Of a stretch of 64,000 nt of DNA, positions 3,971 through 43,425 are shown piece after piece. Origin of the DNA: Prorocentrum cordatum (lineage: Eukaryota; Sar; Dinophyceae; Prorocentrales; Prorocentraceae); NCBI GenBank assembly GCA_963575745.1, contig CAUYUJ010015741.1, forward strand, positions 231,001 to 295,000. The letters are read 5' to 3'. Below the pieces are notes generated by a model. That model was not told the DNA's origin, ran no database searches, and saw only the letters and a list, made by a program, of their open reading frames with translations. A program made the translations under genes and the position numbers. Positions within the stretch are counted from its first letter, which is position 1. Every line of letters begins with the position of its first letter.

Positions 3971-3974
3971 AAAT

Positions 3975-4611: not shown

Positions 4612-4652
<41 letters not shown>

Positions 4653-5490: not shown

Positions 5491-5503
5491 GCCGGAGCCC
5501 AAC

Positions 5504-5880
5504 GTCATCAGCTACAGCGCTGGGATCAGCGCGTGCGAGAAGGGCGAGCAGTGGCAGCGGGCGCTTGCGCTGCTGAGCGAGATGCGGGAGGCGAAGCAGG
5601 AACCCGACGTCATCAGCTACAACGCTGGGATCAGCGCGTGCGAGATGGGCGAGCAGTGGCAGCGGGCGCTTGCGCTGCTGAGCGAGATGCGGGAGGCGAA
5701 GCTGGAACCCAACGTCATCAGCTACAGCGCTGGGATCAACGCGTGCGAGAAGGGCGAGCAGTGGCAGCGGGCGCTTGCGTTGCTGAGCGAGATGCGGGAG
5801 GCGAAGCTGGAACCCAACGTCATCTCTTCTCTATGGCGATCACATCCGTGTGCGAGAAGGGTGGGGGCTCAAGTGGGTAA
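5504..5880 (+). CDS. PPR repeat array (three intact P-type motifs, one decayed)
   Basis: Three consecutive 105-bp repeats begin at 5504, 5609 and 5714. Each reads VISYNAGISACEKGEQWQRA, then LALLSEMREAKLEP, with only a few substitutions. The fourth (5819-5880) decays to SSLWRSHPCARRVG. The open frame is 5201-5956. The residues before the array (GGQISRPEPN) belong to no recognised domain, and no start or targeting peptide can be assigned. PPR proteins are RNA-binding helical repeats, typically organellar. The near identity of the motifs suggests recent tandem expansion. It could be an exon of a larger gene or a fragment. Confidence 0.65.
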
Positions 5881-7226
5881 AACTGGCCCTGTTCGGTCCC
5901 ACCACGGTGTCGAAGCGCTTGTGACGGCCCAACAGGAACCCCAGAGGGTTGCATGACGGCCCAAGAGCGTTCCAAGACGGCCTAAGTTGGTCCCGAAACG
6001 GGCCTCGACGCCCCAAAGACTTCCGAAGGTGGCTCCACGGCGGTCCGAGAGGCCCCAAAGACGCACCGAAAACGCCCCCAGAGGACGCCAAAGAGGCAAA
6101 AATCGTGTCATTCCGAGCGGAAACCGTGCATTTTCAGCGCGTCCGCCTTTTGAGGTGCTCCACGGGCCAGGGCAGGCCCAGAGGCCCCCAATACTCCCCC
6201 AAGACGACCCCAGCGCCCCCCAACAGGTTTCCAAGACGGCCCACAAGAGCCCCAAAACGACGCCAGAGAGCCCTGAAACGGCTTCACAAAACCCCAAGAC
6301 GGCCCCAAGAGAGCTCCGAGGGGGCCCCAAAAGGCTCCCAAGACGGCCTCGGGCAGCTTCAAGAGAGTTCCAAGACGGCCCAAGGCCTCCCGGACGCCCC
6401 GTGACGGCCCCAAAAGGCCCCACAACGTCCCAAAACGCTCCCAGAGCAGCCAAACAAAAACTTCAGAATGGCCTGGAAAAAACACAGAAACGCCCACTAA
6501 AAGAGCGATCGGCGAAGTACAACATTCTTTTCACCAAGGCTCCCAAGAGCAAGACGCAGCGTAGAGAGCTTTCCCAGGCACAGCTCCCAAGAGCGAGCCG
6601 TGACGTCGGGACACCCTTCCGACCTCTCACACAGGAGCACGCATGCACAGCACGCAAGCACCATGGATTTCCTGGGTTGTCCCCCGGAAGAGGCTCGGGG
6701 GGACAGCCCGGGAAAGGCCCCAGAGGCGCCCAACAAACATTTCAAGAGAAAAGGCCCCCAGGAGGCCGCAAGGCAGTCCACGAGGCCCCAACAGGCCCCC
6801 AGGAGCTCGAAAAGGAACCCCGAGAGGCCCACGAACCGTTCCCAAGGAAACGGCAGCGCCCGCCATCAGGCTTCGAAGAAGCAACCGGAAAAAAGTCACC
6901 AGAGCCCTCCAGGTGACGTTTTTCAAGGCCCCAGGTACTTTCAAAATTGAGAAGCGGCGAGACGGACACCGCAGACCCACCATAGCCGTCTGTGACGCTC
7001 CGAAGGCTGTCTAGGCGGAGGTAGAGCGGAAGGCGGACGAAGAGAAGGAAGCGGTCCAAGAGGGCTTCCGAGACGTCCCAAGACCGCTCGAAGGCGCTCC
7101 AGACGAGCCGCGGCAAACGAAATCATTGATTCTTCTATGGTTTCTGAAAGATTTCCACCTTCTCGCCATTTCGAGCGAAGACAGGCCCAGGACGGCCTTT
7201 TCGAGCCGAGACTGGCCCAAGATGAC
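5881..7226 (+). repeat. Phased degenerate repeat with core copies
   Basis: Mostly CCCAAGACGG-type phased blocks. Diverged cores occur near 6130 and at 7115-7190 (AAATCATTGATTCTTC, CACCTTCTCGCC). Positions 6480-6660 are less repetitive but show no convincing coding signal. No gene seen. Confidence 0.65.
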
Positions 7227-7241
7227 GTGGACGAAGTCCAC
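7227..7241 (+). other. Hairpin leader copy (loop GAA)
   Basis: GTGGAC-GAA-GTCCAC is a perfect 6-bp stem followed by GGGTTCGCC. This copy is not followed by a PPR motif but by phased repeat, and the macro-repeat homology begins just after it. Confidence 0.6.
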
Positions 7242-7249
7242 GGGTTCGC

Positions 7250-8479
7250 CCAAGAGGCCCCAGAAAGTCCCAGGAGGGTCCGAGGAAACGCCCAGGAAGG
7301 CCCCAAGACGGGCCTAGACGGCCCCAGCACAACCCAAGGCACGCTGCGACGGCTCAAGACGGCCCCAAGACAGCCCCAAGAGGGTGCCACCGCGGCCCCT
7401 GCTGGGTCCAGGACGACCCAAGGAGGCGCACAGGAGGGGCCCAAGACGACTCCAAGGCGGCCCCCTCACGGCCCCAGACGGCTCCAAGACAACCCCAAGA
7501 TAGTGCCAACAAGGACCCCGATGGGCCCAGGACGGCCTACGGACGCGCCCATGAGGGGCCCACGACGAACCAAGACGGCCCCATCAGGGCAAACGGCGCC
7601 CTCAAGACGGGCCTAGACGGCTCCAAGACGGCCCTTTGAGGGAGCCAAACGGCCCCACACCCTTCGGGCGAACACTTGGGGGGGCTGGGAGCTTGCGACA
7701 AGTCTCCCACATTCATTGTCCTGCCCCATTCTGTTCGCCTGGAGGCCTCCTCCAACCCTGTGGGCGAACAAGAGGAAACCCAGCGGGCCGCCAACCCTGG
7801 GGCCCGTGGGCCCCGCGCCGCTTGGGCAGAAGACGAACGCCGGGTCTGACAGGCCAGCTACCGCCCCCCTTTGCCCGATATGCTGTGCCATCCTGTTCCC
7901 CCAGGGGCCTTGGCAAACTCTTCGGGCCAACCAGACCGGACCCTTGGGACAGCAGCCAATTGATATGACCCAGGCACCTCTCCACACTCTTCGGACCACA
8001 GACCCTCTGGGCGAACAGAATGGGACTTGGCGAACAAACCCTCCCGTTGGCGGCGATGCGACTGGATCGCACCATCAAGGCGTGCCCGGAATGTGATGGC
8101 CGACCCAACAGCGGGTTCTGTTAAGATTTTACTGAATTTCAAATTTTCTTTAAGCTCTCTTGGGCCTTCCCTGTAGATCCTTGCGAGCCTCCCCGACGCT
8201 TTCGGTGGTTTTCCCCGATGGCCTCCCGAGCCCTTCCCCAGGCGCTCCTGAGACGCCTCAGATGGGCTTCGACTTCGACGCACATCCCCGAGAGACTTCG
8301 AAACTGCCCTCAATAGGAGGGGGGTGAACGAGCAGTGCGCCGGGGCCAAGCTGCTGGAGCGCTGCAAGAGCTCGGACACGATGGCGCGGTCTCGCTGCCG
8401 CCGCCCGAGCCGCCGCCGTGTTTGTAGATTTTTGGTGCAAGCTGCGCCGTTCCTCCGAGAGCCATTCCAGAAAGATGTC
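7250..8479 (+). repeat. Macro-repeat, 5'-truncated copy (P1)
   Basis: Matches the last ~1.3 kb of the 3,093-bp unit (aligns to 10274-11571). It contains the TTCTGTTCGCC hairpin block (7735-8030) and the leader up to the hairpin at 8480. It has a GATAGTGCCAACAAGG insertion also seen in the 49139 copy but not in the full units, so it belongs to a distinct subfamily. Confidence 0.85.
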
Positions 8480-11400
8480 GTGGACGGAGTCCACGGGTCA
8501 GCCCTAGTCTCTACTACATTGCAGGGGCACGTGCGTGCCAGAAGGGCGCAGGCTCAAATGTCTCAAAACCGCCCCGGGCTGGCCCCGGGCCGCCCCGGGC
8601 CGCCCAGGCAGGCCCCAGGACATGTCGAGAGGGCCCCCAGAAGCCCCCAAGACGGCCCCAGAGAGCCCCGGCACGCTTAAAGATGGGCCCAAGACGCCCG
8701 AGATTCGCCCCAGGCGGCCCAAGAGGCGTCCAAGACGCCCGAAGAGGCCTCCCAAGAGGCCTCCCAAGAGGGCTCCGAGCGACAGAAATCGTCGATTTCT
8801 ATGTGTTTTTCGATGTTTTCGGCCTCCTCGCCTCGTCGGCTTCCCGACGCTCCAAGACGGCCCAAGAAGCCCCCCCGACCGCTCCAAGACGGCCGAAGAG
8901 GACCCCAAGAGAGCCCCAAGACGGGCCAGGAGGGCCCCCAGACGGTCCCAAGACGCCCCAGGACGGCCCCAGGACGGCCCAGGAGGCGCCCAAGACGGCC
9001 CAAGAGGCACCCAAGACGGCCCCAGGAGCGGCCCAAGACGGCCCACGACAGCCCAAGAGGCGCCGAGGCGGGTCTCAGACGGCCCCAAGACGGCCCAAGA
9101 GGCACCCAAGACGGCCCGAGAGGGCCCTAAGAGCCCCCCCGGGAGGCCCAAACGAAGGCCGAAGAGGCTCCGAAACGGCCCCCACGAAGCCTTCAGTGCC
9201 TTCAGAATTCCCTCCAGGAGCGGGGGAGCGGACGAGAGGCGACAGGCATATCGCATGCAAAAACGCCCCAAGAGATCCCCAAACGGCCCCCACGAAGCCC
9301 TAAGTGGCTTCAGAATTGCTTCCAGGAGGAGGGGAGCGGACGAGAGGCGATCGGCATATCGAAGGCACAAAAGAACAATGTTGGACGCTCCGAGGGCCTT
9401 CGATGTTTCTCCGTTGGGGAGAGTCGTCGTAGGATCGACGATTGCCGACCGAGGGCAGCGAATCCAGTGGAGGCCCAAGAGGCCCCCAGGAGCCCAAAAG
9501 AGATCCCCAAGAGGTGCCACGGGGCTTAAAAACTGCTTCGAAGCGAGGGGGGCGGACGAGGGGACCGCCTCAGGAGGTTTTGGACGGTTTTGGGCCTCAA
9601 AATCGTCCGCTTTACGACGGTTTTGGAAGGATTTTGGCCTTCTCGCCTTTTCCGCTTTCCGACGCTCGAAGACGGCCCAAGAGGCCTCCAAGAGCGCCCC
9701 AGAACGGCCCAAGAGGCTTCCAAGAGCGCCCCAAGACAGCCCAAGAGGGCCCCAAGACGACCCAAGAGACGCTCAAGACGGCCCACGAGGGCCCGAAGAC
9801 AGGCCCAAGAGGGGGCCAAGAGGGGGACCACGGACCGAAAATCCGAGCCTTCCGCCCCAAGAGGGCGCCAGGAGGCCCAAACAGGCCCCCAAGAGGCCCC
9901 AAGGGGCCGCCAAGAATCCCCCGAAGAGGCCCCAGGAGGCTCCCAAGGAGCCCAAACGAGGCCCCTACAGAGGCCCCAACAGCTTCCAAAATGGCCCCGA
10001 AGAGGCCTCGAGCCCGCCTCCGAGCTTCCTCGCCGCGAGGGTGCCAACACGGCCCCAGACCGGCCCAGGACGGCCCAAGGCGCGCTCAAGACGGCCCAAG
10101 ACGATTCCAAGACGGTCCCAGGAGGGTGCGCCCAGGACGGCCCAAGGACGCGCCCGTTCGGGGCCTCAAGACGGGCCAAGATGGCAAGAGAGTCCCAGCT
10201 GGCAAAAATCGTTAATTTTCCATTGTTTACTGTTACACCCTTTGCGTTTCCCGCCGTTTCGGCGGTCCGATGCACCAAGAGGCCCCAGAAAGTCCCAGGA
10301 GGGTCCGAGGAACCGCCCAGGAAGGCCCCAAGACGGGCCAAGACGGACCCAGCACAACCCAAGGCGCGCTGCGACGGCTCAAGACGGCTCCAAGACAGCC
10401 CCAAGAGGGTGCCAACACGGCCCCTGCTGGGCCCAGGACGGCCCAAGGAGGCGCACAGGAGGGGCCCAAGACGACTCCAAGGCGGCCTCCTCACGGTCCC
10501 AGACGGCTCCAAGACAGCCCCACGAGGACCCCGATGGGCCCAGGACGGCCTACGGACGCGCCCATGAGGGGCCCACGACGAACCAAGACGGCCCCATCAG
10601 GGCAAACGGCGCCCTCAAGACGGGCCTAGACGGCTCCAAGACGGCCCTTTGAGGGAGCCAACGCGGCCCCACACCCTTCGGGCGCACACTTGGGGGGGCT
10701 GGGAGCTTGCGACAAGTCTCCCACATTCATTGTCCTGCCCCATTCTGTTCGCCTGGAGGCCTCCTCCAACCCTGTGGGCGAACAAGAGGAATCCCAGCGG
10801 GACGCCAACCCTGGGGCCCGTGGGCCCCGCGCCGCTTGGGCAGAAGACGAACGCCGGGTCTGACAGGCCAGCTACCGCCCCCCTTTGCCCGATATGCTGT
10901 GCCATTCTGTTCCCCCAGGGGCCTTGGCAAACTCTTCGGGCCAAGCAGACCGGACCCCTGGGACAGCAGCCAATTGATATGACCCTGGGACCTCTCCGCA
11001 TTCTTCGGACGAGCATCTGGGGGGCCCAGGAGATTCGGACATGTCTTCCCCATTCCTTGCCCTGTCCCGTTCTGTTCGCCCGAAGGCCTCCACTGACCCT
11101 CTGGGCGAACAGAATGGGACATGGCGAACAAACCCTCCCGTTGGCGGTGATGCGACTGGATCGCACCATCAAGGCGCGCCCGGAGGTGATGGCCGACCCA
11201 ACAGCGGTTTCTCTTAAGAGTTCACTGGATTTCAAATTTTCTTGAAGCTCTCTTGGGCCCTCCCTGTAGATCCTTGCGAGCCTCCCCGGCGCTTTCGGTG
11301 GCTTTCCCCGATGGCCTCCCGAGCCCTTCCCCGAGCGCTCCTGAGACGCCTCAGATGGGCTTCGACTTCGACGCACATCCCCGAGAGACTTCGAAACTGT

Positions 11401-11571: not shown

Positions 11572-14500
11572 GTGGACGGAGTCCACGGGTCAGCCCTAGT
11601 CTCTACTACATTGCAGGGGCACGTGCGTGCCAGAAGGGCGCAGGCTCAAATGTCTCAAAACCGCCCCGGGCTGGCCCCGGGCCGCCCCGGGCCGCCCAGG
11701 CAGGCCCCAGGACATGTCGAGAGGGCCCCCAGAAGCCCCCAAGACGGCCCCGGAGAGCCCCGGCACGCTTAAAGATGGGCCCAAGACGCCCGAGATTCGC
11801 CCCAGGCGGCCCAAGAGGCGTCCAAGACGCCCGAAGAGGCCTCCCAAGAGGCCTCCCAAGAGGGCTCCGAGCGACAGAAATCGTCGATTTCTACTGTGTT
11901 TTTCGATGTTTTCGGCCTCCTCGCCTCGTCGGCTTCCCGACGCTCCAAGACGGCCCAAGAAGTCCCCCCGACCGCTCCAAGACGGCCGAAGAGGACCCCA
12001 AGAGAGCCCCAAGACGGGCCAGGAGGGCCCCCAGACGGTCCCAAGACGCCCCAGGACGGCCCCAGGACGGCCCAGGAGGCGCCCAAGACGGCCCAAGAGG
12101 CACCCAAGACGGCCCCAGGAGCGGCCCAAGACGGCCCAAGACAGCCCAAGAGGCGCCGAGGCGGGTCTCAGACGGCCCCAAGACGGCCCAAGAGGCACCC
12201 AAGACGGCCCGAGAGGGCCCTAAGAGCCCCCCCGGGAGGCCCAAACGAAGGCCGAAGAGGCTCCGAAACGGCCCCCACGAAGCCTTCAGTGCCTTCAGAA
12301 TTCCCTCCAGGAGCGGGGGAGCGGACGAGAGGCGACAGGCATATCGCAGGCAAAAACGCCCCAAGAGATCCCCAAACGGCCCCCACGAAGCCCTAAGTGG
12401 CTTCAGAATTGCTTCCAGGAGGGGGGGAGCGGACGAGAGGCGACCGGCATATCGAAGGCACAAAAGAACAATGTTGGACGCTCCGAGGGCCTTCGATGTT
12501 TCTCCGTTGGGGAGAGTCGTCGTAGGATCGACGATTGCCGACCGAGGGCAGCGAATCCAGTGGAGGCCCAAGAGGCCCCCAGGAGCCCAAAAGAGATCCC
12601 CAAGAGGTGCCACGGGGCTTAAAAACTGCTTCGAAGCGAGGGGGGCGGACGAGGGGACCGCCTCAGGAGGTTTTGGACGGTTTTGGGCCTCAAAATCGTC
12701 CGCTTTACGACGGTTTTGGAAGGATTTTGGCCTTCTCGCCTTTTCCGCTTTCCGACGCTCGAAGACGGCCCAAGAGGCCTCCAAGAGCGCCCCAGAACGG
12801 CCCAAGAGGTTTCCAAGAGCGCCCCAAGACAGCCCAAGAGGGCCCCAAGACGACCCAAGAGACGCTCAAGACGGCCCACGAGGGCCCGAAGACAGGCCCA
12901 AGAGGGGGCCAAGAGGGGGACCACGGACCGAAAATCCGAGCCTTCCGCCCCAAGAGGGCGCCAGGAGGCCCAAACAGGCCCCCAAGAGGCCCCAAGGGGC
13001 CGCCAAGAATCCCCCGAAGAGGCCCCAGGAGGCTCCCAAGGAGCCCAAACGAGGCCCCTACAGAGGCCCCAACAGCTTCCAAAATGGCCCCGAAGAGGCC
13101 TCGAGCCCGCCTCCGAGCTTCCTCGCCGCGAGGGTGCCAACACGGCCCCAGACCGGCCCAGGACGGCCCAAGGCGCGCTCAAGACGGCCCAAGACGATTC
13201 CAAGACGGTCCCAGGAGGGTGCGCCCAGGACGGCCCAAGGACGCGCCCGTTCGGGGCCTCAAGACGGGCCAAGATGGCAAGAGAGTCCCAGCTGGCAAAA
13301 ATCGTTAATTTTCCATTGTTTACTGTTACACCCTTTGCGTTTCCCGCCGTTTCGGCGGTCCGATGCACCAAGAGGCCCCAGAAAGTCCCAGGAGGGTCCG
13401 AGGAACCGCCCAGGAAGGCCCCAAGACGGGCCAAGACGGACCCAGCACAACCCAAGGCGCGCTGCGACGGCTCAAGACGGCTCCAAGACAGCCCCAAGAG
13501 GGTGCCAACACGGCCCCTGCTGGGCCCAGGACGGCCCAAGGAGGCGCACAGGAGGGGCCCAAGACGACTCCAAGGCGGCCTCCTCACGGTCCCAGACGGC
13601 TCCAAGACAGCCCCACGAGGACCCCGATGGGCCCAGGACGGCCTACGGACGCGCCCATGAGGGGCCCACGACGAACCAAGACGGCCCCATCAGGGCAAAC
13701 GGCGCCCTCAAGACGGGCCTAGACGGCTCCAAGACGGCCCTTTGAGGGAGCCAACGCGGCCCCACACCCTTCGGGCGCACACTTGGGGGGGCTGGGAGCT
13801 TGCGACAAGTCTCCCACATTCATTGTCCTGCCCCATTCTGTTCGCCTGGAGGCCTCCTCCAACCCTGTGGGCGAACAAGAGGAATCCCAGCGGGACGCCA
13901 ACCCTGGGGCCCGTGGGCCCCGCGCCGCTTGGGCAGAAGACGAACGCCGGGTCTGACAGGCCAGCTACCGCCCCCCTTTGCCCGATATGCTGTGCCATTC
14001 TGTTCCCCCAGGGGCCTTGGCAAACTCTTCGGGCCAAGCAGACCGGACCCCTGGGACAGCAGCCAATTGATATGACCCTGGGACCTCTCCGCATTCTTCG
14101 GACGAGCATCTGGGGGGCCCAGGAGATTCGGACATGTCTTCCCCATTCCTTGCCCTGTCCCGTTCTGTTCGCCCGAAGGCCTCCACAGACCCTCTGGGCG
14201 AACAGAATGGGACATGGCGAACAAACCCTCCCGTTGGCGGTGATGCGACTGGATCGCACCATCAAGGCGCGCCCGGAGGTGATGGCCGACCCAACAGCGG
14301 TTTCTCTTAAGAGTTCACTGGATTTCAAATTTTCTTGAAGCTCTCTTGGGCCCTCCCTGTAGATCCTTGCGAGCCTCCCCGGCGCTTTCGGTGGCTTTCC
14401 CCGATGGCCTCCCGAGCCCTTCCCCGAGCGCTCCTGAGACGCCTCAGATGGGCTTCGACTTCGACGCACATCCCCGAGAGACTTCGAAACTGTCCTCAAT

Positions 14501-17530: not shown

Positions 17531-17549
17531 ACAGAGTAGGTGTATATAC

Positions 17550-17640
17550 ATGTACATACATATACACCGATGTGTATATATATATATATATATATATGTA
17601 TGCAACAACAATCTGTTTATGCATATGTATATATATCCTA
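17550..17640 (+). repeat. (TA)n-rich tract
   Basis: Alternating TATATA with ACATAC interruptions abuts the left end of the retrotransposon (A1 starts at 17633). The right end of the element also runs into a dinucleotide tract. Confidence 0.85.
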
Positions 17641-17718
17641 TGCGCGCATGTCTTTTCTCATCCCGTCACGAGTCCAGGCCGTCGATGTTAGATCTCTTCC
17701 GTGGGTTTTTGGGCTCAA
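17633..17718 (+). repeat. Split direct repeat A1 (left terminus)
   Basis: 86 bp, direct copy of 23762-23847 with 4 mismatches. It ends 23 bp before the first in-frame ATG (17742). Its last bases (17699-17719) match the dinoflagellate spliced leader at 16 of 21 positions, including GGCTCAAG. Confidence 0.88.
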
Positions 17719-17741
17719 GAATTCGTACCAAGGCAGTGCGT

Positions 17742-18090
17742 ATGGATTACTTGCTCCCTGCCGCCCAGTACGCTTGGCAGGGAACGCTCGCCTATCTCTG
17801 GGGTGGGAACCTGCAGAGGTGCCCATCTGTCCACGTCCCATCTTGCCCTGCCATACCGAGCTGTGTGTGCCCGCCGTGCCCTGGCTGCCCGGCGTGCCCC
17901 GGGGGCTCCCCCGCTCCCGCCACGCTCTCGGCGAGCGGCGGGGGCAGCAGCGAGCCGAGACAGCCCTCCTCCTTCTGGTCTGTGGTGCTGGTGAACGAGA
18001 TCCTCTTGGTGGTCCTGGCGCTGACCTACGGCGCTCTGTCGTGGAACCGTGTCGGGCTGACGTGCTGCCGACGCAATGCTGGCCGTGCAG
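17742..18090 (+). pseudogene. Retroelement ORF1 N-terminus: Cys-rich region and membrane segment
   Basis: Starts at ATG 17742, just after A1. After MDYLLPAAQYAWQGTLAYLW it has a Cys-rich stretch (CVCPPCPGCPACPGG), a Ser/Gly linker, then a hydrophobic segment (VVLVNEILLVVLALTYGAL) that would span a membrane. From memory, related dinoflagellate element proteins begin with a Cys-rich stretch and one membrane helix. The frame runs to TAA 18222, but similarity leaves it near 18075 for the next frame, so a frameshift is inferred. The role is unknown; the position suggests a gag equivalent. Confidence 0.5.
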
Positions 18091-19462
18091 AACGGGGAGC
18101 CGGCGGAAGCAGCGCCTCATGGGACGCTCCCGTGGGCGTCGGTCCGCTACGAAGGACAGCTATTGTGGCACCAGCGTCTGATCTTAGGGCGACGGGCGCG
18201 GACACCACTGGAGAGAGTCACTAAGTGGATGGGGCTCATCTGTACGGTGAGCGCTGACATCTATGAGGGGGACCTTTCATGCCAGGGAAGAGACATCATT
18301 GCGGTGGGGTTCACATCAGACCGTGCAGCCTCCCCGCCGGGCGTCGGTGCCGCCAACTCGTACAGGTTCGGACGGAACCTCACGATGGCCGAGATGCAGC
18401 GGAGTGACCAGACCGCGCTGGACTACCGCTCCGCCGCTCTGGTCGCCGACCACCAGCGCCTGCGGCTGCCTGCGCCGGGCGGACCGTTCCTCGTCCCGCT
18501 GACCTTCGGTCCCGCAGGGGGCGGTGGCCCTGGCGCGGGCGCTGGGCTGGCCGCCGCCGACGCCGCGTCCCCAGCGGCCACCGCGCGGGCCGCCCCAGCG
18601 TTGTTACCCGCTGGCGCCCTGGCCGCCGCCCCCCCTGCTGGCGGAGCGGCCTCGGGCGGCGCAGCCGCGCCTGGGCCGGGGGCTGCGGCCCCGGCGGCTG
18701 GAGTGGCGGCGCGGGTGCTGGTCGAGTCGACCCCGGCGGATGGGACGTGGATGGCTGTCCGCTCGACCTCCGAGCCCGCTCAGACCTACGCGGGGAGGGA
18801 GGCCGCCTACGACGCCAGGCTGCTGAGCATCGTCGCGAACCCAGCGGGTCCAGGCGGCAGGCTTTTGAAGCAATGGCGTGATGCTGTCGCCAGCTTCACA
18901 GAGGAGTCGTTCGTGGACTGGCACATTCCAGGCCCCCGCGCGGGTTTCTGGTGCTGTCAGTTTCATAGACAGACGCCAGGGCGGTCCGCTCGACCACTTC
19001 AGGTTCTGGAGGTCCACCCTTGGGCTGTCGGCCGAGGACTACGGTGTCGGCGACGACGAGGCGAGTGTGCGGGCCATCTGCACCCTCGCCTGCTGGGGCG
19101 GCTCCGACCTGCCGAACCTGGCGGAAGTGGAGCAGATGTTCAGGACGTGCCAGAAGTATGAGTACGTGTATGTCATGGATCGGGACCCTCACCACCGCGC
19201 GTCGCCTGGCGGAGACGGAGGCGGCGAGAGGAACGACAAGATGAAGAGCCGAGGCCGTGGACGTGGCGGTGGACGCCAGGGCCTGCTGAGCTTCGGTTTC
19301 ATCGACGGGAGCGCCGTCTTCACGGGTTTCAGTCGAGACCATGGGAAGAGCATGATCTGCCCCTTGCTCCTCGAGCACGCGGCGAAGAAGGTGGAGAGGG
19401 ATGCTTCGGTGCTGAAGCAAGTTCGCAAGGCCCGCGAGGAGCAGCGGGCCTTGCGATCATGA
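18076..19462 (+). pseudogene. Retroelement ORF1 middle region (gag position, unknown function)
   Basis: Frame from 18076: ALPWASVRYEGQLLWHQ-like start, ADIYEGDLSCQGRDIIAV, a long Ala/Gly/Pro linker (18510-18720), then EESFVDWHIPGPRAGFWC. Near 18960 similarity continues in the next frame (SFIDRRQGGPLDHFRFW, LACWGGSDLPNLAEVEQMF, KYEYVYVMDRD, a Gly/Arg-rich run, CPLLLEHAAKKVERDASVL, KQVRKAREEQRALRS, then TGA 19460). I recognise these blocks from dinoflagellate RT-containing polyproteins but know of no assigned function. The frame change at about 18960 is an apparent 1-nt indel. Confidence 0.6.
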
Positions 19463-19800
19463 CGAGTCCACGACCACGCGTACCGCTCCCCCCCGGCGGT
19501 GCGCGTGTTTTCGGAGGGGGGCCCAGCGGCGGTGGCCCGCCGCCTGCTGGTGAGTTGTGCTCATTGGGCGATCGTGCTGGACGACAGCGTGATCTATTTC
19601 CACTGCCAGGGCCCGGTCAACAGCATCGGGCAGCTTCGGAGGCGCAGGGCGTCGCTGGTTCACGTTCGGTGGCGCGTCGGGTTCTCCGCAAGGGCCACGC
19701 CAACTCGATGGAGGGCGAGATCGTTCGGACCCTCAACGAGCTGTACCTTGGCCAGCCCTGGCACCCCGTCAGCCATCCTCAGTCCATCTGCGGGCCAGCG
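19459..19800 (+). pseudogene. Retroelement linker region, frame-shifted
   Basis: The conserved-looking part (VARRVLRKGHANSMEGEIVR, TLNELYLGQPWHPVS) is in the frame starting at 19459. Upstream and downstream conserved blocks lie in the +2 frame: the RT-proximal block RQALDNARDAVRRFGAP resumes there near 19800. Two compensating indels are therefore likely. No known domain. Confidence 0.45.
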
Positions 19801-21045
19801 GCAGGCCTTGGACAACGCGCGAGACGCAGTCCGACGGTTCGGCGCCCCCCCGGAGGGATTGACTGGCTCAGTGGCCTTTGAGGAGCTCCGAGTTCTCAGC
19901 GACTATGCTGGCGAGAGCGCCACCGTCGCTCCGCTCGACTTTGATAATATCAGTAGTCTCTCTCTTCCAGACGAGGGCTTCAAGCCTGTGCCGCTTGACG
20001 CGCTGGGAGGAGATGCTGGCCGCGGGATAGTCGATCGGCTTCAAGGGATGATGTTGCCCCAGTCTGAGGGTCGCGCTCGGATTGAGTCTGAGGGCCCCCA
20101 GAAGCTCTACACCGGCCCGGCGCTGAGGAACCCCAAGCTGTATGTCCAGCTGCCGCGCGCCCTCGGGCGTCGGAATCTTTTCGATTTCTACAAGGACAAG
20201 TGTTGCAGCGTAGGTGTCTTTTTCGTTTACAAGAAATCGGGTAAGCTGCGGCTCATCCTGGACGGCAGGCGTGCATCCCTGCACTTCCAGGTCCCCGACA
20301 AGGTCGCCCTCGCGTCGGGTGCGACCTTCGCCGGCCTCCACGTGGATGGGGGCAAGCCCGTCGCGGTGGCGGAGGTCGACCTGGCGGACGCGTTCTACAC
20401 GATGCTGCTGCCTCCGAAGTTCAGGAGGTACTTCGCGCCGCCTGGCTGCCGCGCTGGGATGCTGGGCCTCGAGAGCACCGCGGACGGGCGGCGCCTAGCG
20501 GGAACCGACCTGGTGTACCCGTGCTTCAGGTGCCCCCCGATGGGCTGCTCCTTCAACCTGTGGATCTGCCAGACGATGCTGGAGGGAATGGCCCTGAAGG
20601 CACCCCAGCTTTCCCTCGCGAACCGCTTCGTGGACCGCCGACCTGTGCCGCAGGTGTCCGAGGGTGTGATTCATACCGAGTACGTGGACAATGCGATCAG
20701 CCTGTCGACGAACATGGAGACGGCGGCCGCCGCCGCGTCGGCCGTGGACTCGAATCTTCGCGCGGCGGGGCTCCCTACCCACGGAGTCGAGTGCAGTTTT
20801 GGCGCCGTGGCACTGGGCTGGCAGTTCGACGAGAAGTTCCCGATCATCGGGCTGAACCCAGTGCTCCGCTGGAAGCTGAGGTTGGCCTTCCTGGAGCTGT
20901 GCCGGAGGGGACATGCCTCAGGCAAGACGGTCTCGCGCGTGGTGTCTCATTTCACCTCGCGGGGTCTGATTCGCCGCGAGCTATTGTCTGTTCTCAACTC
21001 GTTGTACGCTTTTTCTGCCCAGTACGGAGGCCGCACGGCTGTGGC
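19795..21045 (+). pseudogene. Reverse transcriptase domain (YVDN type)
   Basis: In the frame of 19499-21202: finger region FVYKKSGKLRLILDGRRASL, motif A VDLADAFYTMLLP (first Asp at 20378-20380), motif B CPPMGCSFNLWICQ, and motif C TEYVDNAISLS (20681-20692), with YVDN where most RTs have YxDD. The thumb-like stretch SHFTSRGLIRRELLSVLNSL follows. RT would copy element RNA into DNA. The domain is uninterrupted from about 19800 to 21030; then the frame changes before RNase H. If YVDN is fixed in the family the second Asp is replaced by Asn, a notable departure from canonical RTs. Confidence 0.82.
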
Positions 21046-21790
21046 CCTCTTGCCTCCGCGAGCTTCGTTGGTGCGCCAGCCTTGTCGCGTTCTGTTTCCG
21101 GGACGCTGGCGCCTCGTTCGACAGCGCGCTCACGATGGTGGACTCATCGTGGTGGGGAGTAGGAGTCGCTCAGAAAAAGTCGTCAGCCCCAGTCGCTCTT
21201 GAGCTCTCCAAGTACAATCAGAGATGGATATTCAGTACTCATCAGGAGTCGGAGGTGTCACAGAGGTCCCACGCCTTCAAGTCGGCGACCTCCGCCATCC
21301 CCTTCACCCCAGAGTCGGTCTTCAACCCGAAGGCCCCGATCAAGGAGCCCCTGGAGGCGCCCGTAGAAGAGCCTGTCAAGGAGTCCGCGGTGAAGGGGGC
21401 GCACGTGGAGGAGGAGATGGTCAATGACGCCGAGGAGGAGGAGGAGTTCCCCGAAATCCCATGCGACGTCTGGGCGAAAGGCTGGGTCCCGGTGGTATCT
21501 CATCGCTGGAGTCGTTCAGAGCATCAGGTTGTCTTGGAGGCCCGCGGTATGGTCGTGGCCGTCCGTCATGTCCTTCGACGCGTCTCATCGTTCAACCGAT
21601 GCCATCTCTGCTTGGGCGACTGCTTTGGGGACATCCTGGCCGCCACCGAGGGGCGTTCGTCGCGGCGGGAGATGGGCCGCGCGTGCAGGCAGCTGGCGGC
21701 CCTTTCGCTGGCTAGCGGCGCTGCCTTCTTCTGGCGCCGGGTCCCCTCGGAGAGGAACTCGGCCGACCGCGCCTCCGGGAACCTGCCGGG
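21040..21790 (+). pseudogene. RNase H-like domain of the retroelement
   Basis: Frame 0. Starts with LWPSCLRELRWCASLV, then MVDSSWWGVGVAQKK (first acidic position, DSS), VVLEARGMVVAVRHVL (Glu at 21537), CHLCLGDCFGDILAATEG (Asp at 21618) and a final FFWRRVPSERNSADRASGN (Asp at 21765). The order D-E-D-D fits RNase H of RT elements, which removes RNA from RNA:DNA hybrids. An acidic insertion (EEEMVNDAEEEEEFPE) separates the first two motifs. Assignment is by motif order, not overall similarity. Confidence 0.62.
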
Positions 21791-22745
21791 CGTGGGCAAC
21801 GCTGCCGCGGCGGCGGATCCTAGCTGTCTCGGGGCTGCCGCTGGCCGCCCCAGCCCTGCGAGCGGCCGCGGAGGGCCTGCTGGCGCGAGCTGGGCCGACA
21901 TCGGGCCCCCGCCCGGCCTCGAAGAGGAGGCGCGCTGGCCCTCCGGCTGGGCGAGCTTCCGCGACGGCAGCCGCAAGCCCAGCGAGGCCTCGGGAGCTGG
22001 CAGCCGAGCCGCTGGACCGCCCGGGGCGGGCGAGCTGCCACCAGGCGAGGCATCCCCTGGGCGTGGGCTGGCAGGGTCGGCCCCAGCGTTCGTTCCTCGA
22101 GCTGACGGCCGTTGGGTACAGGACCGCCTGGGGCTACCAAGTCCGATACCAAGCTTTCCTGGCTTGGTCGACGGATGCGGGCCTGTCGGTGGCGAGCGTC
22201 ACGGACCTGGGGGCCGACTGGATGGTGGCCAACGACTCCCTGGCCGCTGCCCGAACGGCCGTGTTGACTTTTGCCCTCAGCCTGGGGCCGTCGGAGACGT
22301 TGTCGCTGCGCGTCCAGTCAGTCGTGCGGCCGGTCAGGGCTGGTCCACGGCATCTGAGCATGCACTCGATCCTGCTGTTTCCCGTGGAGCTCAAGGTGAT
22401 GTCGAAGACCAAGGACTACGACACCAGTCTCCAGCTGGACAACCAAGAGTTCAGCTAAGTCGACCAGCTGCTGGATTGCCTCGTGGAGAGACGTGCGGTC
22501 GGCGCGCCCCTGTTCCACCTGGACGCGAGGTCATGGGCGCGGGTGATCCCGCAGGTGGGCGCCGGCCTCGGACTGGGCGCCCTCGGCCCCCCAATACTGT
22601 GCCAACTGCGCCACGAGGGGGCCAGCCCCGCGAGGTCGACGAACGCTTGGGAGTTCGGCGACATCAAGAAGCGCAGGCACTGGGAGGCCGTCAGGAGCCT
22701 CAAGCTGCACGCGAGGGATGGTCGAGTTCATGTGGAGCTGCAGCG
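21790..22745 (+). pseudogene. Tyrosine recombinase-like domain, catalytic residues lost, TAA interrupted
   Basis: Frame 1. SFLELTAVGYRTAWGYQVRY resembles the N-terminal SAM-like part. FALSLGPSETLSLR occupies the arm where recombinases carry the first Arg (often LRPSE); here it is Gly at 22285. The region between WMVANDSL and VLTFAL looks shortened. After TAA 22456-22458 the same frame continues: VGAPLFHLDARSWARV, GLGLGALGPP, CQLRHEGAS (box II Arg at 22609), IKKRRHWEAVRSLKLHA (His-Trp at 22678-22683). The catalytic Tyr, expected nine residues after Trp, is His at 22708. Tyrosine recombinases integrate the element circle; this copy should be inactive. Confidence 0.7.
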
Positions 22746-22754
22746 TCTGCGACC

Positions 22755-23605
22755 CGTCCTACAGTTTCGGGCCCTCGGTTGCGTCGTGACTATTGGAAGC
22801 ACCCCATGCAGAATCTGAGCTCCTGGGCCCACCTGTCCGACGCGACGGTGTACCTGGAGATCTTCAGTGGCTCTGGGAGCTGGTCCCGGGCGCTGCGGCG
22901 AAGCATGGCTTCTCGCCTGGCGCCCCGAGTCTTCGAGCTGGACGTGGGCCATGAGCCGATCTTCGGTGACCTCAGCCGACGACGAGCCCAGCGCGCGGCG
23001 CGCGGGTGGCTCCGCGGTGGCCTGCTGCAGGGCGTCTGGCTCGGGATGCCCTGCAGCTCGTGGTCGCGGGCGCAGAATCGGCCCAGCGGGCCCCCAGCCC
23101 TGCGGGACGCCGCTCACGTGTTTGGCCTGCCCAACCTGTCGTCGGGTGACTCCCTCAAGGTTGAGACGGGTAACAGGCTGTCGCAGTTCTCTTTCAGCCT
23201 CTTCCTGGAGTGTGCCAGGCGCGGAGTCACCGCATCTATCGAGAACCCTTCCACGTCGTGGATCTGGCAGACCCGCTGGGCCCAGCATGCTGCGCGCCAG
23301 CCAGGGGTTAAGACTGTGGAGTTTGACTTCTGCGCCTTCGGCACAGCCTGGCGGAAGAGGGCCCGTGTGATATATGCCCATCCCGATTTTGACTCGATCA
23401 GCACCTGCAAGTGCACAGGGCGTGGCCTTTGTTCTTTCACACACCGTCGACACCGAGCTCTGGAAGGCAAGACGCCATCCCGAGCTTTCTGGACCAAGAT
23501 TGCCGAACCATGCCCGCCCAGCTTGTCCAGTGCCCTTGCCAGAGCCTATCGCGAAGCTAGATTGTCATCCACGCACCAAGCATTGGTGCGATTAGCGGCC
23601 TAGGG
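22755..23605 (+). pseudogene. C5-cytosine methyltransferase-like domain at the element C-terminus
   Basis: Frame 0 to TAG 23601-23603. Motif I-like VYLEIFSGSGSWSRAL (from 22848), motif IV GMPCSSWSRAQ with the Pro-Cys dipeptide at 23049-23054, and motif VI SIENPSTSWIW (Glu-Asn-Pro at 23241-23249). Downstream, EFDFCAFGTAWRKRARVIYA, a Cys cluster (CKCTGRGLC) and a PSRAFWTKIAEPCPPSLSSA tail. I, PC and EN in this order are the signature of DNA cytosine-C5 methyltransferases. DIRS and PAT elements usually carry a Dam-like N6-adenine enzyme, so a C5-type domain next to a recombinase is notable. This segment is open throughout; whether it is expressed is unknown. Confidence 0.72.
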
Positions 23606-23632
23606 CCAGTTAGATCTCCGGAAAGATGTTTC

Positions 23633-23764
23633 GAGGTCGCTTTTGTTTGTCCTGGCCTCCCGCGTCTCTGCCCGACGCGGATGGATGGTGCACTCTGGCT
23701 GGACAACGTTTGCGAACAGACACTGTCGAGATGCTGGCCTGGAAATAGAGCGGGGTCGAGGATA
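23633..23764 (+). repeat. Split direct repeat B1
   Basis: 132 bp, direct copy of 24767-24898 with 2 mismatches. It starts 30 bp after the methyltransferase stop codon and overlaps A2 by 3 bp (23762-23764). Confidence 0.9.
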
Positions 23765-23847
23765 CCCTATGCGTGCATGTCTTTCCTCATCCCGTCACGA
23801 GTCCAGGCCGTCGATGTTAGATCGCTTCCGTGGGTTTTTGGGCTCAA
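23762..23847 (+). repeat. Split direct repeat A2
   Basis: 86 bp, direct copy of A1 (17633-17718). It adjoins B1, forming the internal B1A2 block expected of PAT/Ngaro-type elements. Confidence 0.9.
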
Positions 23848-23929
23848 CCCTGCCCACCCACCCTTGAGCCTTGTATTGGAGAGGCCTGACGGCTGGTGCC
23901 ACCGACCCTGATCGAAAGGGCTAGGAGCG

Positions 23930-24490
23930 GGGGGAGGAAGCGGAGGATGGGGAGGAGGAGGAGGAGGAGGAGGAGGAGGAGGAGGAAAAGGAGGAGGAGA
24001 AGAGGAGGGGAGGAGGAGAAGCAGGAGGAGCAGGAGAGGAGGAGGAGGAGGAGGGACCAGGAGGAGGAGAAGGGAGGAGGAGGAGGAGGAGGAGGAGGAG
24101 GAAGGAAGAGGAGGAGGAGGAGGAGGAGGAGGAGGAGGAGGAGGAGGAGGAGGAAGTGCATCCTTTGTGTGCCCGCTCGAAGAAAGTGCGCCCCGGGAGT
24201 GTGATATTCTGACTTTGGACGTGCTCCCGGAAGAGGAAGAAATGCATCTCGGGCGTGCCCGCTCGAGGAAAATGCGCCCTAGGGGGGGTGGTATTTTGAC
24301 TCGGGGCCCGCTCCCGGGACGCCTCTGCGGGCGGAGGAGGAGGAGGAAAAGGAAAAGGAGGAGGAGGAGGAGGAGGAGGGGAAGGAAGAGAGGAGCAGGA
24401 GGAGGAGGAGGAGGAGGAGGAGGAGGAGGAGGAAAAGGCGGAGGAGGAGGAGGACCAGGAGGAGGAGGAGGAGGAGGAGGAAGTGCATCC
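23930..24490 (+). repeat. (GGA)n microsatellites and short TGCATCC modules inside the element tail
   Basis: GGA/AGG tracts at 23930-24153 and 24330-24480. Between and after them a short module recurs, reading GTGTGCCCGCTCGA or CGTGCCCGCTCGAGGAAA (about 24168, 24257 and 24494). It lies between A2 and B2, so the microsatellite appears to have expanded inside the 3' region. Confidence 0.85.
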
Positions 24491-24766
24491 TTTGTGTGCC
24501 CGCTCGAGGAAAGGGCGCCTTGGCCGGCGTCGTACCTGCCCCGGCCCCCCCCCCCTCCCCTCCCCCCCCTGCGGGGAAGGGATCAAAGGGAAGGGGCTTC
24601 CCTTCGACTTCACTACGACGTCGCTTAATTTCGCTTTGGGTAGCGCGCTTGAGGAGGAGAGCCCTGGGAGGGGGAAAACGGAGACGACGGAGACGACCAG
24701 ACGAACGGAGAAGCCCTTCACACACGCCGACAGGGTCGGCGGATAAAGATGTTCCGTCTGTCGTTG

Positions 24767-24898
24767 GAGGTCGCTTTTGTTTGTCCTGGCCTCCCGCGTC
24801 TCTGCCCGACGCGGATGGATGGTGCATTCTGGCTGGACAACGTTTGCGAAGAGACACTGTCGAGATGCTGGCCTGGAAATAGAGCGGGGTCGAGGATA
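24767..24898 (+). repeat. Split direct repeat B2 (right terminus)
   Basis: 132-bp copy of B1 with C to T and C to G differences only. The element ends at GGATA and is followed at once by a (TC)n(TA)n tract. Confidence 0.88.

Positions 24899-24977
<79 letters not shown>
24899..24977 (+). repeat. (TC)n(TA)n microsatellite
   Basis: CT dinucleotides then TA dinucleotides, the same compound structure as at 43320-43455. It abuts the right end of the retrotransposon. Confidence 0.95.
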
Positions 24978-25998
24978 GTACCAGACGCCGGCTTCATCCG
25001 GCTGCCGCGGCTGGAAGGCAGCTCGCAAGTATGCAACCAGGCAACCGATCTTCACCCTCGCATGCGCCTGACCTGTACGAGCTGCGAGAGGACGTCATCC
25101 TGGACATCTCGGGTTTGCTGCCCAGACTTTTAGTGTGTGGGCTTGCCGCGAGCAGATCGGGCCCACTGCTGTTGCTGCAAACCCACGGGCTAGGTCCCGT
25201 GTCTTCAGCTATGCGGGAACCTCTGCGTGCGAGAAGGTGCTGTGGATCAACCGTTTTCTTGCCTCAGGGGGCCCAGGGGCCGAAAAAAACTGCTGGGGGC
25301 AGCTTCATTGTGCCCCAGCAGCCCTGCGGGCCTCGGGCCACGCCTCCTGTTCGGCCCAACAGAGCCCGCAGATATCCGAAGAGGCGCCCAAGACGGCCTC
25401 AGTTCGCTAGACAACGCGGCACCCGAGGCCCCCCAGACGCTTCAAGCGTGGTCGAAAAGGGTTCCCACGACAGCCTCGGAAGGCCAACCTCGTCGCAATA
25501 CTTTTGTTTTTTGCGTATGTTTGTGCTCCGCCTCTGTAGCGCTGCAGCGGGACATCGATGACCCCCACACTTTTTCAAGACAACCTCCGAGGCCTCCATG
25601 AGAGCCCCATACAGTGTGGGGGCGCGCATCAAGAAACCATATGCTGTTCGTCAGGGTATCCTGGGTTTCTTCGCTCCGCGCGCTGCGCGGTGACTTCCCG
25701 CAGCCGATGAAGAAGCTGCTGCGTTCAGCGTGCTGGGTTTCCCCTCGGGTGCACCTCGCGCGCGGGTTCTCAGGGTTGGGTTCCTTGCGAGGGTTTCTTG
25801 CGGCCGCGCCCGCACCGTACACGGCCCAGCACGGCCCCAGGATGGCCCAAGAGGCGCCCAGGACGGCCCAGAAGGACTTAACAAAAGGCCCCAGGAGCGG
25901 CGTGTGGCGCGGCCCACGACGGCCCGACACGTCCCCCGAGGTACTCCAGAGAGCATCATCAAGCAGTGGCGGAGCTTCCTGGCTCGCCTACAGCCCTA
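24978..25998 (+). other. Non-coding stretch with a degenerate PPR relic
   Basis: Positions 25201-25240 read VFSYAGTSACEKVL, a decayed PPR motif, preceded by the inverted repeat CACGGG/CCCGTG (25184-25201). The rest holds phased repeat (25330-25420, 25810-25900) and unassigned sequence. No complete gene seen. Confidence 0.5.
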
Positions 25999-27775: not shown

Positions 27776-30700
27776 TCTACTACATTGCAGGGCCCAGTGC
27801 GTGCCAGAAGGGCGCAGGCTCCAATGTCTCAAAACCGCCCCGGGCTGGCCACGGGCCGCCCCGGGCCGCCCAGGCAGGCTCCAGGACATGTCGGGAGGGC
27901 CCCCAGAGGCCCCCAAGACGGCCCCAGAGAGCCCCGGCACGCTTAAAGATGGGCCCAAGACGCCCGAGATTCGCCCCATGGGCGGCCCAAGAGGCGTCCA
28001 AGACGCCCGAAGAGGCCTCCCAAGAGGCCTCCCAAGAGGGCCCCGAGCGACAGAAATCGTAGATTTCTGCTGTGTTTTTCTATGTTTTCGGCCTCCTCGC
28101 CTCTTCGGCTTCCCGACGCTCCACGACGGCCCAAGAAGTCCCCCCGACCGCTCCAAGACGGCCGAAGATGACCCCAAGAGAGCCCCAAGACGGGCCAGGA
28201 GGGCCCCCAGACGGTCCCAAGACGCCCCAGGACGGCCCCAGGACGGCCCAGGAGGCGCCCAAGACGGCCCAAGAGGCACCCAAGACGGCCCCAGGAGCGG
28301 CCCAAGACGGCCCAAGACAGCCCAAGAGGCGCCGAGGCGGGTCTCAGACGGCCCCAAGACGGCCCAAGAGGCACCCAAGACGGCCCGAGAGGGCCCTAAG
28401 AGCCTCCCCGGGAGGCCCAAAAGAAGGCCGAAGAGGCTCCGAAACGGCCCCCACGAAGCCTTCAGTGCCTTCAGAATTCCCTCCAGGAGCGGGGGAGCGG
28501 ACGAGAGGCGACAGGCATATCGCAGGCAAAAACGCCCCAAGAGATCCCCAAACGGCCCCCACGAAGCCCTAAGTGGCCTCAGAATTGCTTCCAGGAGGGG
28601 GGGAGCGGACGAGAGGCGACCGGCATATCGAAGGCACAAAAGAACAATGTTGGACGCTCCGAGGGCCTTCGATGTTTCTCCGTTGGGGAGAGTCGTCGTA
28701 GGATCGACGATTGCCGACCGAGGGCAGCGAATCCAGTGGAGGCCCAAGAGGCCCCCAGGAGCCCAAAAGAGATCCCCAAGAGGTGCCACGGGGCTTAAAA
28801 ACTGCTTCGAAGCGAGGGGGGCGGACGAGGGGACCGCCTCAGGAGGTTTTGGACGGTTTTGGGCCTCAAAATCGTCCGCTTTACGACGGTTTTGGAAGGA
28901 TTTTGGCCTTCTCGCCTTTTCCGCTTTCCGACGCTCGAAGACGGCCCAAGAGGCCTCCAAGAGCGCCCCAGAACGGCCCAAGAGGTTTCCAAGAGCGCCC
29001 CAAGACAGCCCAAGAGGGCCCCAAGACGACCCAAGAGACGCTCAAGACGGCCCACGAGGGCCCGAAGACAGGCCCAAGAGGGGGCCAAGAGGGGGACCAC
29101 GGACCGAAAATCCGAGCCTTCCGCCCCAAGAGGGCGCCAGGAGGCCCAAACAGGCCCCCAAGAGGCCCCAAGGGGCCGCCAAGAATCCCCCGAAGAGGCC
29201 CCAGGAGGCTCCCAAGGAGCCCAAACGAGGCCCCTACAGAGGCCCCAACAGCTTCCAAAATGGCCCCGAAGAGGCCTCGAGCCCGCCTCCGAGCTTCCTC
29301 GCCGCGAGGGTGCCAACACGGCCCCAGACCGGCCCAGGACGGCCCAAGGCGCGCTCAAGACGGCCCAAGACGATTCCAAGACGGTCCCAGGAGGGTGCGC
29401 CCAGGACGGCCCAAGGACGCGCCCGTTCGGGGCCTCAAGACGGGCCAAGATGGCAAGAGAGTCCCAGCTGGCAAAAATCGTTAATTTTCCATTGTTTACT
29501 GTTACACCCTTTGCGTTTCCCGCCGTTTCGGCGGTCCGATGCACCAAGAGGCCCCAGAAAGTCCCAGGAGGGTCCGAGGAACCGCCCAGGAAGGCCCCAA
29601 GACGGGCCAAGACGGACCCAGCACAACCCAAGGCGCGCTGCGACGGCTCAAGACGGCTCCAAGACAGCCCCAAGAGGGTGCCAACACGGCCCCTGCTGGG
29701 CCCAGGACGGCCCAAGGAGGCGCACAGGAGGGGCCCAAGACGACTCCAAGGCGGCCTCCTCACGGTCCCAGACGGCTCCAAGACAGCCCCACGAGGACCC
29801 CGATGGGCCCAGGACGGCCTACGGACGCGCCCATGAGGGGCCCACGACGAACCAAGACGGCCCCATCAGGGCAAACGGCGCCCTCAAGACGGGCCTAGAC
29901 GGCTCCAAGACGGCCCTTTGAGGGAGCCAACGCGGCCCCACACCCTTCGGGCGCACACTTGGGGGGGCTGGGAGCTTGCGACAAGTCTCCCACATTCATT
30001 GTCCTGCCCCATTCTGTTCGCCTGGAGGCCTCCTCCAACCCTGTGGGCGAACAAGAGGAATCCCAGCGGGACGCCAACCCTGGGGCCCGTGGGCCCCGCG
30101 CCGCTTGGGCAGAAGACGAACGCCGGGTCTGACAGGCCAGCTACCGCCCCCCTTTGCCCGATATGCTGTGCCATTCTGTTCCCCCAGGGGCCTTGGCAAA
30201 CTCTTCGGGCCAAGCAGACCGGACCCCTGGGACAGCAGCCAATTGATATGACCCTGGGACCTCTCCGCATTCTTCGGACGAGCATCTGGGGGGCCCAGGA
30301 GATTCGGACATGTCTTCCCCATTCCTTGCCCTGTCCCGTTCTGTTCGCCCGAAGGCCTCCACAGACCCTCTGGGCGAACAGAATGGGACATGGCGAACAA
30401 ACCCTCCCGTTGGCGGTGATGCGACTGGATCGCACCATCAAGGCGCGCCCGGAGGTGATGGCCGACCCAACAGCGGTTTCTCTTAAGAGTTCACTGGATT
30501 TCAAATTTTCTTGAAGCTCTCTTGGGCCCTCCCTGTAGATCCTTGCGAGCCTCCCCGGCGCTTTCGGTGGCTTTCCCCGATGGCCTCCCGAGCCCTTCCC
30601 CGAGCGCTCCTGAGACGCCTCAGATGGGCTTCGACTTCGACGCACATCCCCGAGAGACTTCGAAACTGTCCTCAATAGGAGGGGGGTGAACGAGCAGTGC

Positions 30701-43275: not shown

Positions 43276-43289
43276 GTGGGTTGGCTGCT

Positions 43290-43335: not shown

Positions 43336-43425
<90 letters not shown>

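Follow-up and report, generated by a model that had tools for sequence, protein, structure and literature searches.

A tyrosine-recombinase retrotransposon family of Prorocentrum cordatum that probably inserts into microsatellites, with a clade apparently reliant on recombinase supplied in trans

Introduction

Among retrotransposons that carry a tyrosine recombinase (YR), the closest described counterpart of the element reported here is SymbioDIRS-Dnmt3 of Symbiodinium. According to the text of PMC5890265, these DIRS-like elements are arranged A-coding-B-A-B, with a cytosine methyltransferase in the same pol open reading frame (ORF) as the reverse transcriptase (RT) and the YR in a separate ORF. 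Methyltransferases known earlier from DIRS-class elements were, in the same account, of the Dam-like adenine type. Our element lies in a 64,000-nucleotide stretch of Prorocentrum cordatum (GenBank assembly GCA_963575745.1, contig CAUYUJ010015741.1, positions 231,001 to 295,000), referred to below as the window. It resembles the Symbiodinium elements in its dinoflagellate host, in its repeat arrangement and in the way that methyltransferase, RT and YR are distributed over reading frames. Very likely it is a defective copy of a low-copy family of YR retrotransposons which inserts into microsatellites by way of the dinucleotide AT, and which includes a clade served by YR in trans and by RT, RNase H and methyltransferase in cis.

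Other described systems share some of these traits. As presented in the text of PMC4157794, elements of the PAT group combine a methyltransferase domain with split direct repeats in the order A1-B1A2-B2, as the present family does; Ngaro elements also have split direct repeats, the internal ones lying downstream of the YR, but differ in having no methyltransferase. The PAT methyltransferase is a Dam-like adenine enzyme, whereas the domain found here is predicted to have a C5-cytosine fold. DIRS1-like elements include some in which a pol of RT, RNase H and methyltransferase is overlapped by the YR, and their integration makes use of a short shared sequence and does not duplicate the target, both in common with our family; DIRS1 itself differs in its inverted terminal repeats and 3-bp junction, where we see split direct repeats and AT (text of PMC3266345).

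The original prediction for this locus, made from its sequence, likened its geometry to PAT and Ngaro elements. A YR retrotransposon with split direct repeats is indeed what we find, but with its C5-type methyltransferase and its YR nested in the pol frame the family is nearer SymbioDIRS-Dnmt3 than classical PAT or Ngaro. The likeness is to the published description, not to a sequence, and the methyltransferase here is unmatched by PF00145.

Repeats and boundaries

The features of the element and its flanks are as follows.

17539..17632, no strand: left flank, TA/ATGT-rich simple sequence, the presumed insertion target; four ATG[TC] in its last 40 bp, the threshold used below
17633..17718, + strand: A1, left terminal repeat and element start; 20 fetched relatives start at A base 1 or 2 and their upstream flanks differ
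18229..19223, + strand: Gag-like region, broken over frames, without a CCHC knuckle (alignment to relatives)
20051..21034, + strand: reverse transcriptase with YVDN motif (protein relatives and alignment)
20970..23603, + strand: open pol frame from RNase H to methyltransferase through the YR region (ORF analysis)
21039..21791, + strand: RNase H-like region (alignment to relatives; named by position and resemblance)
22087..22716, + strand: tyrosine recombinase, nested in pol in another frame, defective (alignment and motifs)
22791..23480, + strand: C5-cytosine-methyltransferase-like domain with EIFSGSG, PCSSWS and IENP (motifs, alignment and structure model)
23630..23764, + strand: B1, internal copy of B (repeat comparison)
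23762..23847, + strand: A2, internal copy of A; its junction with B1 reads GAGG-AT-ACCC, and GAGG-AT-ATCC in most relatives shown
23877..24744, + strand: GGA-rich insert of about 868 bp in the A2-B2 spacer, not found in relatives; bounds approximate
24764..24898, + strand: B2, right terminal repeat, the element ending in GAGGAT (ends shared in relatives)
24899..24980, no strand: right flank, CT/TA simple sequence, with no ATG[TC] in 40 bp

The A pair that had been predicted was recovered over 86 nt at 95% identity (82/86), and the B pair over 135 nt at 98%, slightly longer than the 132-nt version first proposed, in which B1 and B2 differ at 2/132 positions. B1 and A2 share the three bases ATA (23762-23764), and the 2-bp AT is found at both element ends and again at the internal junction. 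At E 1e-3 the window contains no additional A or B, and chance does not account for pairs so long and so similar. The predicted coding limits also held: an ATG, possibly the start of the Gag-like gene in a region that is broken over frames, lies 23 bp after A1, and the last long frame ends at 23603, 30 bp before B1 in its 132-nt version.

Copies elsewhere in the genome

The P. cordatum assembly searched comprises 4.13 Gb in 21,875 contigs (4.15 Gb is stated for strain CCMP1329 in the text of PMC10666404). The closest proteins are P. cordatum predictions with at most 90% identity. A 1.2-kb query beginning at A1 gave at least 67 matches, the best 40 of 115 candidates being scored, and 40 separate copies were counted; 35 of these start at query base 1 or 2, which does not by itself show a boundary because the query starts there. 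Twenty copies (numbered here with an L) were fetched at 10 kb each, a best-scoring sample and not a census. All 20 have A1 from base 1 or 2 and unlike upstream flanks. The predicted order A1...B1A2...B2 is the plan of 13 of them, including L028, whose B matched only partly; two (L020 and L025) have A-coding-B only, as exchange between B1 and B2 would leave, and five have just their 5' part inside the fetched stretch.

The flanks on both sides of 15 copies, the window included, and the left flanks of six more show no mutual match (megablast, E 1e-10). Among 18 further left flanks there are three similar pairs (L031/L037, L034/L035 and L045/L046), apparently locus duplications, and these apart no copies sampled continue into the same flanks beyond A1 or B2. 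As had been predicted, other copies share the element's ends without target-site duplication, their flanks having only AT in common. Nor do A and B behave as abundant repeats scattered at random: A2 matches fall mostly in known copies (best 40 of 1,245 scored). The internal B-A junction, searched as a pattern with three mismatches allowed, occurs at at least 26 genomic places, some of them duplicated loci, against one for the reversed control; these counts are lower bounds. The family looks like a low-copy one. Among 41 A2-query matches (best 40 of 1,245 candidates scored, the surroundings of each not inspected) no solo A-B remnant was recognised. On contig C19155, three B-A junctions lie about 10.3 kb apart (490163-510955), perhaps in a tandemly duplicated block holding part of an element.

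The relatives also correct the size. The window element is 7,266 bp long, and the precise ends proposed for a 7.3-kb element stand, being shared among copies, but that length includes an insert of about 0.87 kb. The A2-B2 spacer is 919 bp in the window copy against 49-52 bp in 12/12 complete relatives of the same family (family 1) and about 116 bp in the sister copy L028. Both limits of the insert fall within the spacer; it contains three internal repeats of about 65 bp, and its first ~220 bp, used as a query with simple repeats skipped, found no second genomic match. It is a later addition to the window copy. Since these 868 bp are found only in the window spacer, the family element is 6.4-6.7 kb long, not 7.3 kb, complete family-1 relatives measuring 6,425-6,717 bp (12/12).

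Coding regions

Alignment to relatives gives the domain order Gag-like, RT, RNase H, YR and methyltransferase-like, and relatives of the three predicted domains, RT, RNase H and recombinase, were all found inside the element. Pfam RVT_1 matches the window weakly (E 0.042) and the relative P0008 above cut-off; the RNase H-like region has no Pfam match. The first 2.2 kb of 21 copies contain no CCHC knuckle, and no zinc knuckle was found in the Toc and Kangaroo forms either (text of PMC4157794).

Where the frames of a copy are open, a single one encodes RT, RNase H and methyltransferase, and the YR lies inside it in the next. Thus L011 has a 1,269-residue frame (3887-7693) from before the RT into the methyltransferase and a 545-residue YR frame at 5322-6956, and the 1,196-residue frame of L023 spans RT and RNase H and reaches residue 153 of the 230 in the methyltransferase. 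The union of methyltransferase and RT in one frame that characterises SymbioDIRS-Dnmt3 is therefore seen in these two copies. It is broken in the window copy, which is defective, its RT being in a different frame from RNase H and methyltransferase. The gene model P0026 (EukProt), from a distant relative, has RT, methyltransferase and YR in one frame, unlike the overlapping layout here.

The methyltransferase is of the C5-cytosine type as judged by its predicted fold. The model of the window domain has a predicted local distance difference test score (pLDDT) of 88.2, C5 methyltransferases make up all 33 of its Foldseek matches at E<=0.001, and the motifs PC and ENP agree. Searches with the sequence were less productive. 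Three DNA methyltransferase families in PHROGs were matched (best E 1.3e-4), the window member remaining unmatched. PF00145 (DNA_methylase) matched 0/7 members up to a limit of E 10, although the HMMER filters drop most matches above about 0.1. A profile search of the PDB returned four matches, none a methyltransferase, the 40 pattern matches from a search of viral_contigs included no confirmed relative, and a distant-mode phage search using the methyltransferase region found nothing.

For the YR, five members share an invariant box I (LYLRPxE), HxxR is present in 3/4 members reaching that motif and the tyrosine in 2/3 reaching the last, the motifs being named as in YRs generally. PF00589 matches 2/5 YR members (best E 5.4e-4), no PDB sequence was matched at E up to 1, and nearly the whole YR part of the structure model of P0022 has pLDDT <50, for which reason we assign the YR no fold. 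The combination that defines the DIRS order, RT with a tyrosine recombinase (R, HxxR, Y) and no target-site duplication, is thus present at the level of the family, the second part being judged from flanks with only AT in common; the window YR has itself lost the Arg, His and Tyr.

A clade with a decayed recombinase

The window YR has a 213-bp in-frame deletion near 22205, Arg to Gly in box I, His to Cys in HxxR, the catalytic Tyr changed to His, and one stop. The same 213 bp (71 codons, in frame) are absent from the YR of seven copies, namely the window, L009, L013, L014, L015, L019 and L020; the length is exact, from alignment of the window with three copies that have the segment. In an RT-RNase H tree of 19 copies (two of them, L016 and L018, not typed for the deletion), the seven carriers form one clade with 100/100 support, nested among segment-bearing copies. 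The box-I position is Gly in 7/7 deletion copies and Arg in 9/9 copies without the deletion. Ten further stretches add two with the deletion (L050 and L056), one with a larger gap in a like background (L055) and two with the full segment (L047 and L048), five being truncated or uninformative. A splice origin of the gap was rejected: its junction, inspected by eye, lacks GT/GC-AG, and the segment is aligned coding sequence in distant relatives.

Selection was assessed by pairwise ratios of nonsynonymous to synonymous change (pN/pS) with codon-bootstrap intervals, comparing the deletion clade with eight others (L028 was excluded from this 'full' group, and L012, L016, L018, L021 and L027 are without YR, methyltransferase or both). 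The YR gives 1.06 (0.78-1.50) in the clade against 0.54 (0.42-0.70) in the eight others. The corresponding pairs of values are 0.53 and 0.62 for RT, 0.64 and 0.53 for RNase H, and 0.39 and 0.39 for the methyltransferase, and the groups differ clearly for the YR only (bootstrap 0.0006; RNase H 0.12). Parsimony counts from 15 copies, taken along the clade's stem and internal branches and so over the time when it was multiplying, are in the same direction: nonsynonymous to synonymous changes number 78:15 for YR, 14:39 for RT, 18:17 for RNase H (a per-site ratio of about 0.33) and 15.5:39.5 for the methyltransferase. On the internal branches of the other copies the YR count is 16:23 (Fisher p 1.8e-6 against the clade). 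The methyltransferase has the lowest pairwise ratio of the domains, and on internal branches it and the RT are alike. All these tests take sites as independent, use one tree and include shifted-frame pieces.

The changes in the YR of the clade fall at codon positions 1, 2 and 3 in numbers of 32, 45 and 17, against 10, 8 and 21 on the internal branches of the others (p 1e-4). Since YR position 2 is pol position 3, this pattern fits constraint from the pol frame once the YR no longer matters. Positive selection on the decayed YR was considered and set aside: testing 78:15 against the ratio of about 3.05:1 expected under neutrality yields p 0.055, and overlap with the pol frame would explain the excess more simply. 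In the deletion clade, then, the YR is about neutral while RT, RNase H and methyltransferase remain constrained.

The insertion target

Left ends mostly read ...AT-ATCCTATG, many of them preceded by TATGT, right ends read GAGG-AT-, many then continuing GTATG, and the internal junction reads GAGG-AT-ATCC. At least four ATG[TC] within 40 bp are found in 13/26 family-1 left flanks, compared with 305 of 30,836 background 40-mers (0.99%) drawn from the window and the same loci, and 8/14 right flanks are ATGT/ATGC-rich. The left-flank count excludes L035 and L037, with duplicate flanks, and L045 and L046, whose 5' end is divergent or truncated; L034, the first bases of which also depart, was retained and scored as a non-hit, and the right-flank count is without L020 and L028. 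The left flank of L020 contains the repeat of the opposite strand.

If the two flanks are joined with AT written once, a period-4 phase is kept at 6/6 junction-spanning positions in L009, L014, L015, L019 and L026, and at 5/6 in L010, L013 and the window. Controls on the five best joins give 2/4 with AT omitted and 6/8 with AT twice. The right side of the joins of L009, L013, L014, L015, L019, L023 and L026 was read one 4-base unit onward, leaving the phase unchanged, and the right end of L020 is placed a few bases off. By eye, the L011 join restores a period-6 repeat. In the sister family 2 the left flanks of L027 and L028 lie in TCC repeats; those of the other seven sampled do not.

A YR tied to insertion in simple repeats has a parallel in nimaviruses, which insert in telomere repeats but are large DNA viruses of crustaceans with a different target repeat, and whose YRs are not closely related to DIRS (text of PMC10871703).

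Weighing the evidence

Several observations tell against a family that enters microsatellites through AT and a clade that borrows its YR. The window itself has no Pfam match to YR or methyltransferase. Of nine sampled YR genes without the deletion, eight have at least one difference from R-H-R-Y, in two cases at a frame break, so that these genes do not point to a present YR donor; the His position, occupied by Tyr in several relatives, may vary naturally. Tip branches show little contrast in the YR, with 83:34 for the clade and 150:72 for the other copies; decay of insertions once they have landed would give such a result, but the clade's contrast with the others comes from few internal branches. 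Changes at pol position 2 exceed those at position 1 (32 against 17), unlike the usual protein pattern. As to the target, the lack of target duplication beyond the common AT is judged from the flanks; half of the family-1 left flanks fall short of ATGT/ATGC richness; and the count of rich left flanks is 0/9 in family 2, which is about 70% identical and was tallied apart, for which reason a family-wide target rule was dropped. Seven of the 15 joins hold only 0-4 of 6 positions. The window copy has no ATG[TC] in its right flank and four, just the threshold, in its left, and its join is equally good in the controls (3/4 with AT omitted, 7/8 with AT twice) and so does not discriminate.

It could be argued that segmental duplication spread the deletion clade, or that it spread while its YR was still present, the YR now being old dead sequence and no supply in trans having been needed. 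Locus duplication does apparently account for the flank-sharing copies L031/L037, L034/L035 and L045/L046, and decay is seen in the 13 complete copies compared, with differences between repeats of 1-10 of 86 and 2-21 of 132. Yet the flanks of the seven clade members are mutually unlike, all seven carry both the deletion and the Arg to Gly change, and RT and methyltransferase were under constraint along the stem and internal branches of the clade itself; we regard this explanation as unlikely. About as improbable, in our judgement, is that the microsatellite flanks arose after insertion, or that the host is so rich in repeats that no choice of target is needed. The window flanks, long simple repeats only marginally ATGT-like, would suit that idea, as would a background in which 2,426 of 30,836 40-mers are periodic, but it does not sit well with an ATGT/ATGC enrichment of about 50-fold over background from the window and the same loci, nor with flank repeats that are mostly of one strand (L020, on the left, is opposite) and in phase across the insertion in 8/15 joins.

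The presence of an RT and of direct repeats might also suggest a long terminal repeat (LTR) retrotransposon or nested repeats brought together by chance. An LTR retrotransposon would be marked by target duplication and a DDE integrase, and we see neither the duplication in the flanks nor any integrase family among the Pfam matches of the window and its relatives. With two unlike repeats in split order, recurring in 13/20 copies, and YR motifs in the relatives, this possibility is hardly credible.

We return, then, to a YR retrotransposon family whose clade is served in trans. Its cycle would begin with reverse transcription of the element RNA. The B1A2 segment may provide the template on which the cDNA is completed and circularised, forming the joint GAGG-AT-ATCC, a role that models of such elements give to it. 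Recombination by the YR between the AT of the circle and one within a microsatellite would then insert the element and leave no target duplication; the circle step is that of the published model of DIRS elements (text of PMC3266345). The window clade, having lost its own YR, was probably integrated by YR provided in trans by relatives, and RT, RNase H and methyltransferase would be needed in cis, the products of each element serving its own RNA or cDNA. Marking of cDNA by the methyltransferase is a proposal made in the text of PMC5890265.

Other features of the window

A pentatricopeptide-like module (SAGISACEKGEQWQRALALL...) occurs singly at five places on the + strand (2795, 5516, 14701, 16599 and 54379); the first matches PPR_2 at E 5e-4, below Pfam's cut-off. 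About six similar long Pro/Arg-rich open frames (8535-10652, 11775-13745, 27801-29921, 49093-50331, 52149-53423 and 57418-59392) are perhaps a dispersed GC-rich repeat, open by composition; one of them was scanned and had no Pfam match. At 40293-43613 (+ strand) there is a 1,106-residue open frame without a Pfam match at E 0.1 and with a CT/TA simple repeat towards its end.

Significance

DIRS-like elements with the A-coding-B-A-B plan and a cytosine methyltransferase were already known from Symbiodinium (text of PMC5890265). Apparently new, going by the titles and opening abstract text of the open-licence papers surveyed, are the Prorocentrum family, its microsatellite target and a recombinase-less clade with a constrained methyltransferase. 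No YR retrotransposon of P. cordatum, and none that targets microsatellites, is named in the open-licence titles and abstract openings surveyed. The main text of PMC5890265 contains neither 'Prorocentrum' nor 'microsatellite', that of the P. cordatum genome paper (PMC10666404) contains none of 'DIRS', 'retrotranspos' and 'methyltransferase', and 'DIRS' is absent from the available text of a dinoflagellate review (PMC11453091).

The evidence leads us to favour, with moderate confidence, the view that loss of the recombinase took place no later than the root of the clade, which went on multiplying all the same, the recombinase acting in trans, and the RT and the C5-type methyltransferase, the latter constrained at least as strongly as the RT, acting in cis. 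What the methyltransferase does in DIRS-like elements 'still remains unknown', in the words of PMC3266345. If our view is right, each element would need it to complete its own life cycle, and the recombinase would act at preferred sites, entering ATGT/ATGC microsatellites through an AT core. An element line that could lose its recombinase yet kept its methyltransferase would make a cis role of the latter directly testable, and a microsatellite-preferring recombinase with an AT core would offer a defined substrate for work in vitro.

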